From Candidatus Nanoarchaeia archaeon (lineage in GTDB: Archaea > Nanobdellota > Nanobdellia > Woesearchaeales > JACPBV01), in contig JANQNH010000018.1 in NCBI GenBank assembly GCA_028279655.1, positions 186,001 to 250,000 on the forward strand: a stretch of DNA of 64,000 bases, written 5' to 3'. The stretch's first letter is position 1, and every line of letters begins with the position of its first letter. Positions 25,938-47,356 of this stretch are shown piece after piece. The translations under genes were made by a program, and so were the position numbers. Under the pieces are notes generated by a model that ran no database searches, had not been told where the DNA came from, and saw nothing but the letters and a program-made list of their open reading frames with translations.

Positions 25938-25949
25938 GTATATCCTTGT

Positions 25950-26307
25950 CTCCGTTCAAAATCTAGCTACGCTAGGGTTAGCAGCTTCAAAGTTCTCGAT
26001 GTTAGTATCTATAGCTGACATTCCCCGTAAGGGACATCCCCCTTGTCAGTTACATCTAAATTATTTCAAAAAAATTTTAAGTCAGTCCCTACCTCAACCC
26101 TTTTAGAAATAAAAGATTTCTAAACCTTCAAAGTTGCTTTGCAACGTTTGAAGTAAAGGGTAAGGATTGATCGGGACTGACTAAATTTTTAGGAAATTAG
26201 GAAGCCTAAATGAATCCATTCACCTCCAATCCTAAAGGATAGAGATATCTGGCTTCCTAATTTATAGAACTTTGACCTTAGGCTGCTAACCTACATTTTG
26301 AACGGAG
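25950..26307. other. 358-nt multi-branched palindromic element B (candidate structured RNA or cruciform element)
   Basis: Outer stems 25950-25962/26295-26307 (13 bp), 25976-25985/26282-26291 (10 bp), 25987-25996/26266-26275 (10 bp); internal domains closed by 26080-26089/26173-26182 and 26194-26206/26251-26263, with further hairpins. Confidence 0.75.
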
Positions 26308-26364
26308 CCACATTAATGCAAACATTTTTAAACCATGCGTTTCAATATTGATATAGGTGGTTTT

Positions 26365-27003
26365 ATGAAATATGATCTACATGTACATACCCATTATTCG
26401 GCATGTTCTATACTTAGACCTAGAACCATACTGAAGGTAGCTAAGAAAGCTAAACTGGACGGTCTGGCGGTAGTAGACCATAACTCTGTAAGAGGGGGGC
26501 TTGAGGTCAAAAAGGAGAATAAGGATAAGAGCCTGGAGATAGTACCCTCCACTGAGATCAGTACAGACAGGGGGCATGTTGTCGGTCTGTATGTCACAAA
26601 AGATATCAAGTCAAGGGAATTCTTTAATGTTACAGAGGAGATAAAGAATCAGGGGGGGATAGTCATACTTGCGCATCCATTCAGGATGATCCCCTATCTG
26701 AGGTCCAAGGTCAAGGGCATAGATATCAGGAAATATCTGGATGCTGTTGAATGCTACAATGCAAGGACCTCTTATTTCGGGAATAGAGGTGCTGGGAAAC
26801 TTGCGGAAGAATTTAATCTGGCAAAGACAGGCGGTTCTGATGCACATTTCTCTTTTGAGGTTGGCAGGAGCTATACATTATTTGACGGAGACCTTAGGAA
26901 AGCGATCCAGAAAAAGGAGACAAGGGCTGCAGGAAGCAATGTTACAGGCTTAGCAGGCAGCACTTTTAGTTTCTTTAAAAAGCACTTACTGAGGTGGTGG
27001 TAA
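26365..27003 (+). CDS. PHP-domain metal-dependent phosphoesterase
   Basis: YDLHVHTHYSACS, VVDHNSVRG, ILAHPFR, TGGSDAHF motifs. Confidence 0.9.
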   Translation: MKYDLHVHTHYSACSILRPRTILKVAKKAKLDGLAVVDHNSVRGGLEVKKENKDKSLEIVPSTEISTDRGHVVGLYVTKDIKSREFFNVTEEIKNQGGIVILAHPFRMIPYLRSKVKGIDIRKYLDAVECYNARTSYFGNRGAGKLAEEFNLAKTGGSDAHFSFEVGRSYTLFDGDLRKAIQKKETRAAGSNVTGLAGSTFSFFKKHLLRWW

Positions 27004-27004
27004 G

Positions 27005-27529
27005 GTGTGGTTCTTTATCCTCCAATGCTTCTATTTCATGTTGCCTGCATATCTTGCAAATATGGCTCCGGTTATCGTCAAGGATTGGTTTAAATGGCTG
27101 GCGGTCCCTACTGACTTTGGAAAGAACATATTTGGGGACAACAAGACCTATAGGGGATTGATATTTGGAATCTTGTTCGGAATCCTTGTTGCGTTTATAC
27201 AGTTCCTGCTCTACAATATCAGTTTTTTCAGGGAACTTAGCTTTGTCGATTACTCCAACTGGCTTCTGCTTGGATTCCTTTTTGGTTTTGGAGCTTTGTC
27301 TGGGGATATGATTGAGAGTTTCATCAAAAGAAGGCTTAAGATAGGGCCAGGGCAGAGGTTTGTCCCATGGGACCAGCTGGATTTTGTTATCGGCTCTTTG
27401 GTACTTGTTGGTATTGTTGTTAATATCACCTGGAGAAGGATATTTTTTATTGCCATAATAAGCGTAATAGGGCATATCTTGGTAAATCATGCTGCTTATT
27501 ATCTTAAGATACGAAACGAAAAATGGTAG
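27005..27529 (+). CDS. carS: CDP-archaeol synthase
   Basis: YLANMAPVIVKD..FGDNKTYRGLIFG..RLKIGPGQRFVPWDQLDFVIGS; GTG start. Confidence 0.93.
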   Translation: MWFFILQCFYFMLPAYLANMAPVIVKDWFKWLAVPTDFGKNIFGDNKTYRGLIFGILFGILVAFIQFLLYNISFFRELSFVDYSNWLLLGFLFGFGALSGDMIESFIKRRLKIGPGQRFVPWDQLDFVIGSLVLVGIVVNITWRRIFFIAIISVIGHILVNHAAYYLKIRNEKW

Positions 27530-28167
27530 TTGGTCTTTTCTTGATTGTTCTGATTGTTTTTTTACTTATTTTTGTATTGTTGTTTGGGTTCTATAGAATT
27601 GTTTTTTTGAGGGATCCTGAAAGGGAGGTCCCTTCTGGGAATAATATAGTTTCCCCTGCAGATGGAAAGGTAATAAAGGTCATTAAGCTCTGGAACCTGG
27701 ATAGTGTTAAGATTGAGAAAGGGCTTGCAGGAAGGATCAGTTCGTTTGTTCCTGAAAATTGCAAGGAGGGTTATCTTATCAATATAATGATGGATATTTT
27801 TAATGTACATGTTCAGAGGGCACCTATAGATGGAAGAGTGAGAAGGGTGAAGCATTCTGGTGGCAATTTTAGGAATGCAGTCTATGGGGATAGGTTTAAG
27901 AATGGATTGGAGAACGAGAAGAATGAGATCCTGATAGAGAATGATAAGATTGGAAAGTTTAAGGTGATCCAGATAGCTGGTTTTTTGGCCAGAAGGATAG
28001 AATGTTCTGTAAAGGAGAAACAGAAGATTAATAAAGGTGAAAGGATAGGGAGGATATTGATGGGCAGCCAGGTTAGCCTTATATTGCCAGGGGGTGTCAG
28101 GTTATCAGTCAATGAAGGAGATAAGGTCCGGGCTGGGGAGACAATACTTGGTAATGTAGCTGGGTAA
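27523..28167 (+). CDS. Phosphatidylserine (archaetidylserine) decarboxylase-like proenzyme
   Basis: SPADGKVIKV; MDIFNVHVQRAPIDGRV; C-terminal MGSQVSLILPGG (putative G/S self-cleavage site). Confidence 0.9.
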   Translation: MVVGLFLIVLIVFLLIFVLLFGFYRIVFLRDPEREVPSGNNIVSPADGKVIKVIKLWNLDSVKIEKGLAGRISSFVPENCKEGYLINIMMDIFNVHVQRAPIDGRVRRVKHSGGNFRNAVYGDRFKNGLENEKNEILIENDKIGKFKVIQIAGFLARRIECSVKEKQKINKGERIGRILMGSQVSLILPGGVRLSVNEGDKVRAGETILGNVAG

Positions 28168-28195
28168 CTTTTGGTATGACAAAACTATCTTTAAG

Positions 28196-29254
28196 ATGAA
28201 GAAGATTACAAAAATTATGTTTAAGGGGAGGGGAGGAGGTCTTACCCTCACTTTGCTGAGGATCCTGCTCGCTTTTATAGTCTTCCTGCTCATATACTCC
28301 TCGGACAACGATCTGGCGCTTTATCTGTTTGTGCTTACTGCTTTTGTATCTTTTTTAGATGGATTTCTTGCTAAGAGAAATAATTCAAAGAGTCAGTTGC
28401 GATCTATGCTGGACCCTTTTGCTGATAAACTCCTTATAAATCTTGTCGCTGTTACCTTGTTCTTTAAGGGTTTTTTACCTTTCTGGGTAATGGCAGTGTA
28501 CCTTTCCAAGGATTTGATGGTTGTTTTTGGGGCTATCTGGATCCTTAGCCAGAATACCAAAACTATCTTTCGAATGAACGTTATCGATAAGATCAGTGTT
28601 TTTATACAGACCTTCACATTACTTACTGTCCTTATGGGTTATCTGGATCCAGTACTTTTATGGGTATCTGTTGGGTTTGTTGTACTGTCTTTTATAGTTA
28701 CCTTGTTCAGATCAGGTGTGAGGGTAGTTAGGTATAAGACAGACATCGAGGAGATACGTTTCAGTAAATTAATCAGATTGCCAGATTTCTTTACATTTAT
28801 GAATATATTTATGGGTCTTACTGCCATATTGCTAGTGGTTAATGAAGAACATTTTTTTGCAGTCATCTCTCTTTTGATAGCTGTTGTTTTTGACTATCTT
28901 GATGGGAAGGTAGCTAGGTGGACAAACAGGGAAGGGGAGTTTGGAAAGCAGCTGGATAGCCTGGCAGACACTATAAGTTTTGGGGTTGCCCCTGCTATCT
29001 TTGGATTTAGCATGGTGCAGACCAACCTTGCACTCATCACCTTTGCCTTGTTCCTTTTTGCAGGGGTGCTTAGGCTTGCCAGGTATAACATAATGGAATT
29101 TACAGGAGATTTTGCAGGCATGCCCATAACCGTCAATGGTGTTATAATACCCCTGATATTCTTAGCAAAGGTACCTGTTGTTGCATATCCTTATATCTAT
29201 CTTTTCTTGGCAATATTGATGGTCAGTCCTTTAAAGTTTAAGAAGTTGTTTTAG
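28196..29254 (+). CDS. Tandem CDP-alcohol phosphatidyltransferase fusion (PgsA-like + PssA-like)
   Basis: Two CDP-AP-type motifs: degenerate DGFLAKRNNSKSQLRSMLDPFADK and canonical DGKVARWTNREGEFGKQLDSLAD. Confidence 0.85.
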   Translation: MKKITKIMFKGRGGGLTLTLLRILLAFIVFLLIYSSDNDLALYLFVLTAFVSFLDGFLAKRNNSKSQLRSMLDPFADKLLINLVAVTLFFKGFLPFWVMAVYLSKDLMVVFGAIWILSQNTKTIFRMNVIDKISVFIQTFTLLTVLMGYLDPVLLWVSVGFVVLSFIVTLFRSGVRVVRYKTDIEEIRFSKLIRLPDFFTFMNIFMGLTAILLVVNEEHFFAVISLLIAVVFDYLDGKVARWTNREGEFGKQLDSLADTISFGVAPAIFGFSMVQTNLALITFALFLFAGVLRLARYNIMEFTGDFAGMPITVNGVIIPLIFLAKVPVVAYPYIYLFLAILMVSPLKFKKLF

Positions 29255-46739: not shown

Positions 46740-47356
46740 GAGCGTTAGCGAGCCATGGGGTTTAATACCCCGACCTTTAGGTCGCTTATTCTAGAAAGAA
46801 ATTTATGCGGCTTCGCCGCAGAATATTCTGCGAACGAAGTTGCGCAATAATCTACTTTCACTTAAGTAGTGTGAGCTTTGTTCGCGGAGGCGAACAAAAT
46901 GTTAAAACACTATAGCCACAAGGTTGGCACAAATTTCTGGCATATTGAGTTTGGAACCAAATATCGCTACAGGATGTTTGGCAAGTTCAAGCAAAAAAAC
47001 ATTGCTGAAGCCTCAATACGCAAGGTATGTAGTAAGCATCATATAAAAATACATACTATTTTTGTGATGCCAGAACACGTTCATATGAGAGTTACGTTAC
47101 CTCATAACATAACCGAGTCAAAAGGGATGCAGCTTATCAAAGGAGGTTCAGCATATATTTTCTTTAAGAATCACCCTAAAAGCAGGCTAAGGCTTCCTCA
47201 AGGACATCTTTGGAGTGCTGGAGGTTGTGCGACAACTGTTGGATACAATGATGTAGATACAGTTGATGATTATATTAGAAATCAGGCTAAACATCATGCA
47301 GTAGCCTAAGGCCTTAGCTGGATACCCCGACCTTTAGGTCGTGGGAGGAGGTCATT
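46740..47356 (+). mobile_element. IS200/IS605-family element (tnpA only)
   Basis: Y1 TnpA flanked by 20-bp ATACCCCGACCTTTAGGTCG at 46765-46784 and 47322-47341; subterminal hairpins CGACCTTTAGGTCG, GCGGCTTCGCCGC, TTGTTCGC-GGAG-GCGAACAA. Exact ends uncertain. Confidence 0.85.
46899..47309 (+). CDS. tnpA: IS200/IS605 Y1 transposase TnpA
   Basis: HUH motif HVHMRV; C-terminal VDDYIRNQ with putative catalytic Tyr; KGMQLIKGGSAYIFF. Confidence 0.93.
   Translation: MLKHYSHKVGTNFWHIEFGTKYRYRMFGKFKQKNIAEASIRKVCSKHHIKIHTIFVMPEHVHMRVTLPHNITESKGMQLIKGGSAYIFFKNHPKSRLRLPQGHLWSAGGCATTVGYNDVDTVDDYIRNQAKHHAVA

Follow-up and report, generated by a model that had tools for sequence, protein, structure and literature searches.

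The 358-nt palindromic sequence at positions 25950-26307 of the window, by which we mean the whole 64,000-nt stretch of Candidatus Nanoarchaeia archaeon DNA analysed here, is a by-product of nesting and not one unit: three mobile elements lie one inside another. The sequence-only reading had offered either a new class of structured RNA or a complex non-autonomous mobile element, and the latter proved right. We consider it very probable, from sequence comparisons, that the outermost element, A, was moved in trans by an IS5-family transposase to a promoter-adjacent site, and that two further elements, B and C, were inserted together later, in the manner of a Russian doll. In a first step the 165-bp non-autonomous A would have transposed just upstream of the BRE/TATA box of a PHP-domain protein gene, through an IS5-family DDE transposase acting in trans, making 9-bp duplications and inserting at a fixed distance from archaeal promoters; elsewhere, B, formed of two large stem-loops, would have acquired the 53-bp C; and B+C would then have entered two A copies independently, that of the window and one other, each time at a TATTT^ATAG but not at the same one. 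What carries this explanation is the three layers with their empty sites, the 9-bp duplications, the promoter spacing, candidate parent insertion sequences (IS) with matching ends, and covariation within A, as read from the genomes compared below.

Three nested layers and their empty sites

Searched against its own genome, the composite returns 24 matches, which divide it into blocks and place its true outer ends at 25948 and 26309. From the outermost layer inward these are A (165 bp, with terminal inverted repeats), B (144 bp) and C (53 bp), arranged with their downstream neighbours as follows.

25948..26066, + strand: left part of element A (IS5-type MITE), 119 bp, contiguous with 26264-26309 in uninterrupted copies; it holds terminal repeat GTCTCCGTTCAAAAT, the side hairpin CTAGC-TAC-GCTAG, the left strand of helix P2 and the conserved core hairpin CTGACATTCCCCGTAAGGGACATCCCCCTTGTCAG
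26067..26101, no strand assigned: 5' part of element B (CAAAAAAATTTTAAGTCAGTCCC...), interrupting A at TATTT^ATAG with no duplication of the target
26102..26154, no strand assigned: element C (53 bp), made of two small hairpins and set into B at ACCCT^AAAGGG (junction +/-1 nt)
26155..26263, no strand assigned: remainder of element B (AAATTAGGAAGCC...GGCTTCCTAATTT), supplying the strand that closes stem-loop 1 and all of stem-loop 2
26264..26309, + strand: right part of element A, 46 bp, with the right strand of P2 and terminal repeat ATTTTGAACGGAGCC
26310..26318, + strand: 9-mer ACATTAATG at the would-be target duplication, its left partner missing (left flank GTATATCCTT)
26319..26332, + strand: downstream archaeal promoter, BRE-like CAAACA and TATA box TTTTTAAA, 15 nt past the A end
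26365..27003, + strand: downstream gene for a PHP-domain protein (Pfam PF02811 and PF13263)

The two A parts of the window sum to 119 + 46 = 165 bp, equal to the family length, and uninterrupted 165-bp copies stand elsewhere in the genome at C27:10153, C27:3672, C30:189708, C35:370344 and C37:33613, making seven full-length copies with the two interrupted ones included; truncated copies lie on C10 and at C35:128263. The copies without B provide the empty site for the split at 26066/26264 (TATTT^ATAG). B in turn occurs outside A, alone at C13:5229 and C20:29257, the two copies whose comparison with the window defines its 144-bp length, and truncated on C31. C is missing from B at C13 and C20, and its two copies in the genome both lie within B copies that are themselves inside A; the second of these, at C35:135607, sits at a different position in another A, again at TATTT^ATAG, and that second composite is bounded on both sides by the perfect target repeat TCAGTAAAAC. 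Because both copies of C sit in B+C at different A positions, the simplest order of events would be that C entered B once and that B+C then entered two A copies. The A copy of the window, which begins ~10 bp past the stop codon of the 1515-aa gene, has no recognisable target duplication of its own, and since it is the left-hand duplication that is missing, its left flank may be rearranged. The same genome also holds, at C35:284388-284505, a ~118-120-bp form matching only positions 29-148 of the A model described below.

Element B has neither terminal inverted repeats nor, as judged from the two empty sites inside A, a target duplication, and carries near-terminal palindromes; on its reverse strand it is preceded by CTAT in four copies and ATAT in one, among five copies only. 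A search of 198 relatives gave just one weak 39-nt match, in one genome, and both B and C are lineage-specific. In its sequence features B resembles the palindrome-associated transposable elements (PATEs) of Haloquadratum, where nesting of small mobile elements is on record; PATEs derive from IS200/IS605 (PMC3119063). Like B, PATEs have no terminal repeats, make no duplication, carry near-terminal palindromes and nest in other mobile elements, whereas B differs in that its palindromes extend to the very end of the element and in that the search for an IS200/605 parent sharing its ends gave none. The two Y1 transposase loci of the genome were considered as parents and set aside, as they share no ends with B. 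One of them is an intact IS200-like Y1 gene at 46878-47309 of the window (Pfam PF01797, 80.8 bits) flanked by hairpin repeats, and the other lies at C8:814-1173.

The element A family and its place upstream of promoters

A DNA search found A in 42 of the 198 relatives, and a covariance model built from 24 copies extended this to 138 of 362 Woesearchaeales genomes in 99 genera. In a phylum-wide sample, 57 of the 58 A-positive genomes fall within Woesearchaeales, the remaining one having a single weak match; a core-motif scan of 85,488 species genomes returned 84 stretches, titled Woesearchaeota, Nanoarchaeota/Nanoarchaeia or unclassified archaeon, and the core pattern was not found in viral contigs. 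The family is thus found essentially nowhere outside Woesearchaeales among the genomes tested. Across the order, copies measure 161-167 bp. Among 66 distinct full-length copies, mean identity between the two flanks is 0.72 at a length of 9 bp as compared with 0.29-0.40 at other lengths; 26 copies have perfect duplications and 35 agree at at least eight of nine positions (0.05 expected with mismatched flanks). Judged by these flanks, A is mobile and makes 9-bp target duplications.

Shorter and longer relatives accompany the full-length copies. Forms of ~118-120 bp, spanning model positions 29-148 without the GGCTCTGT ends, occur at L130:3138-3255, L160:5680-5797 and L162:3862-3981, and as adjacent inverted pairs at L166:1551-1798 and L177:7602-7853, where the partner core has a GCTGCG/CGCGAC-type stem replacing CTGACA/TGTCAG. 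Relatives of 209-224 bp, whose ends are of the GGCTCTGTAGAAA type and whose 9-bp duplications are perfect, lie at L106:2337-2560, L115:2616-2825, L131:420-628, L172:4127-4336 and L178:1228-1437.

The insertions stand in a fixed relation to promoters. In 46 of 132 flanks an outward TATA-like string begins 15-17 nt past the A end (the 9-bp duplication and a further 6-8 nt), where neighbouring positions would predict 2.7, and 51 of the 66 copies have a TATA at 14-18 nt on at least one side. Positions 11-12, on which no selection was made, are 80-84% adenine, as a BRE predicts, and an ORF start follows at 35-90 nt on 41 of 49 TATA sides versus 19 of 72 other sides. By side, the TATA of 65 A loci is on the right only in 30, on the left only in 19, on both in one and on neither in 15; these last 15 of 65 have no standard TATA string at 14-18 nt, several having near-matches. 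A fixed orientation of A relative to the promoter was considered and is ruled out by the occurrence of both orientations (30 right, 19 left). In the window, A is followed by ACATTAATG, CAAACA and TTTTTAAA and then by the PHP-domain gene at 26365, so that the 15-nt TATA spacing there is that of the family. As part of the nested-insertion explanation as a whole, we hold it highly probable that insertion is directed to a fixed distance from archaeal promoters; the targeting would act either through the TBP/TFB-bound promoter or through the BRE/TATA sequence itself.

Internal fold and candidate parents of element A

In a sequence-only alignment of 57 copies, from which the terminal repeats were excluded, 96.6% of the cells in the internal helices of A pair, 133 of them with double changes; five measures were used, and all 500 shuffles fall short on every one. 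With slid partners, 28-52% of cells pair. Concerted change between the arms of A could mimic such compensated covariation. Single copies folded as RNA lie far beyond shuffles (median z = -6.5), and one copy folded as DNA gives z = -9.9. The changes in the helices are almost all from one Watson-Crick pair to another, and G-U pairs amount to ~1% in P2, near the level of the terminal repeats, compared with 9.6% in the acceptor stems of a small reference set of 18 tRNAs.

These data bear directly on the possibility that A holds a functional structured RNA of about 118-165 nt, captured by IS5-type ends and spreading as their cargo. The covariation of the internal helices across genera, the near invariance of the core loop and the existence of forms lacking the outer repeats (model positions 29-148) are what such an RNA would lead one to expect; we nevertheless judge it unlikely, given that A lies upstream of the TATA box of the downstream gene and hence outside that transcript, that it occurs in both orientations relative to the promoter and that its G-U share is that of DNA-level terminal repeats and not of the tRNA stems. 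For these same reasons (position outside the downstream transcript, both orientations, rarity of G-U pairs), we infer that selection has more probably acted on a DNA fold of A (hairpin or cruciform) than on an RNA, and the fold would accordingly be used as DNA. It may be suggested, tentatively and with more doubt than confidence, that the interior, with its near-invariant core hairpin, is a DNA or RNA fold that helps to load the IS5-type transposase or TBP/TFB and so steers insertion to promoters. The core itself (26014-26050 in the window, and in homologues too) reads pyrimidine-purine-pyrimidine, TTCCCC / GGGA / CCCCTT, and its three tracts seem to covary (e.g. CTCC/GGAG/CCTC), in the way that those of a triplex or a protein-binding site might.

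As for the agent of transposition, the PF01609 transposase loci of the order include IS of 884-909 bp with A-matching ends and 9-bp duplications. Nine intact parent-type IS of 877-909 bp combine A-like terminal repeats and 9-bp duplications with an outward TATA at 15-17 nt in 9/9, and about 10 of 13 further copies without clean duplications also have the TATA spacing. The end types GGCTCTGTCCTGAATCTC and GGCTCTGTCCTAAATC are common to A copies and IS. Only ~15-17 terminal bases are shared between A and the parent IS, so the pairing is made on end sequence, duplication length and target choice. The parent transposases belong to Pfam PF01609 (DDE_Tnp_1), and all four tested have NF033579 (IS5_2) as their best NCBIfam model, two of them reaching its cut-off of 140 (151.4 and 140.2 bits) and two falling just under it (133.9 and 124.7 bits); they are best described, from these matches, as IS5 family. 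A profile of the four finds relatives in 139 of 356 genomes, with about 40 strong matches. In IS5-type parents a strong hairpin separates the left end from the start codon of the transposase (L215:1145-1230, L221:122-200, L222:1142-1225) and possibly limits read-through translation. The IS5-type copies L234, L246 and L259 are flanked at either end by an outward TATA, 15-16 nt away, and show no matching duplication, a pattern that suggests recombination between copies or misassembly.

Other loci were tried as parents and rejected. IS903 makes 9-bp duplications, which was the reason for trying PF13737; its loci gave no element combining matching ends with the promoter spacing, whereas PF01609 supplied such elements. 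L229 (1183 bp) has GGCTCCATCC ends and is flanked by a 9-bp duplication; because its transposase is dissimilar and no TATA stands at the family's spacing, it was left out of the parent count.

That an IS5 transposase moves A would thus be consistent with ends, duplications and targets alike. The alternative, that a different transposase with 9-bp duplications moves A and that the IS5-type elements just resemble it at their ends, draws on the window's genome (an 89.9%-complete draft in 39 contigs), where no IS5-type transposase was found, profile search included, and on the ends themselves, which vary widely in A and differ between A and IS in some genomes (e.g. G001 and G272). We regard it as very unlikely: the end types match within a base in G295 and G349, duplication length and promoter spacing are identical in A and IS, and the loci around A copies yielded no other IS-size element with terminal inverted repeats and a duplication, a 3.5-kb window match having poor terminal repeats. 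The window's genome may have lost its parent element, or the parent may be missing or collapsed there; a MITE usually, though not of strict necessity, has its source of transposase in the same genome.

Since parent IS and MITE share the TATA spacing, it appears to be the transposase that sets the choice of promoter. Less probable again than a different transposase, in our estimate, is random insertion after which only promoter-upstream copies survive; these are small, gene-dense genomes in which insertions into genes or promoters would be harmful, but survival would permit a wide range of distances, and TATA starts are confined to a 3-nt window at 15-17 nt, the same for A and the parent IS.

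The composite fold, known systems and significance

All helices listed by the sequence-only reading are present in the sequence, and they map onto the layers: element A accounts for its closing helix, side hairpin and Domain I, the two stem-loops of B for its Domains II and III, and C for the pair of hairpins within Domain II. The folding excess it looked for is also there, the RNA fold of 25950-26307 reaching -132.6 kcal/mol as against a shuffled mean of -72.8 (z = -12.6, equalled by none of 100 shuffles) and that of the minus strand z = -9.3; no ORF of at least 80 aa overlaps the interval, in keeping with its remark that none explains the element, and neither the gathering threshold nor a limit of E <= 1 brought up an Rfam family. 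That the composite takes on a single branched shape follows from A being an almost complete imperfect palindrome and from B and C being hairpins. A single large structured non-coding RNA, for which the very strong folding on both strands and the lack of an ORF would speak, has next to no likelihood, its parts being found apart and differently combined in the same genome, B and C being lineage-specific, the sequence having no Rfam match, and uninterrupted A and B copies already refuting it as a unit; nested insertion, with separate copies in the same genome, likewise explains away a 358-nt cruciform. The proposed ~360-nt RNA class consequently falls, as A, B and B+C occur apart or in other combinations, and the extra genomic copies and covarying homologues that the reading had set as its test do exist, for the 165-bp outer element alone. 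Genes for phosphatidylserine decarboxylase and CDP-alcohol phosphatidyltransferase at 27523-29254 are consistent with the lipid operon it had placed downstream.

Archaea are known to carry IS5-derived MITEs 140-250 bp long, e.g. derivatives of ISMma12 and ISMba19 (PMC3852290). They resemble A in their DDE_Tnp_1/IS5_2-type parents, short terminal inverted repeats and mostly ends-only likeness to the parent; they are listed with a duplication of 0 or 3 bp (PMC3852290), whereas that of A is 9 bp, and the A family is further distinguished by its order-wide range, constant length, covarying internal helices and promoter-fixed insertion. The insertion rule has its closest counterpart in TnGBS, ISLre2 and ISKra4, where Mutator-like transposases act on bacterial sigma-A promoters and insert, mostly in one orientation, at 15-17 bp from the -35 region (PMC3942029). 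A keeps a similarly fixed upstream distance, 15-17 nt from the TATA, but its promoters are archaeal BRE/TATA ones, its transposase is of the IS5 family and its insertions occur in both orientations. Among the parent transposases there are no Mutator-like matches, NCBIfam and Pfam giving IS5/IS4-type DDE enzymes, and the A family thus works like TnGBS, ISLre2 and ISKra4 without being a member of that group by its transposase. Fixed-distance, promoter-targeted transposition is also a property of yeast Ty elements. The bacterial intergenic repeats ERIC, BOX and RUP are likewise short, conserved, imperfect palindromes found in many genomes, and follow other insertion rules. The open-licence papers searched yielded no Woesearchaeota MITE, no archaeal IS that targets TATA boxes and no archaeal or IS5-family case of fixed-distance promoter targeting. 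To judge from the papers and libraries searched, a promoter-targeting family of IS5-type MITEs with a conserved internal fold, confined to one archaeal order, appears not to have been described before.

In Woesearchaeales there are many natural insertion sites, resolved to the single base, upstream of BRE/TATA promoters, together with candidate transposases, and in an order that is uncultured the A insertions mark promoters. It also poses a puzzle, in that the interior of a MITE, which would be expected to drift freely, keeps a compensated structure and a constant length over about a hundred genera. If the fold is indeed part of the mobility apparatus, A would represent a class of transposon with an order-wide structured nucleic-acid module in promoter-targeted transposition.
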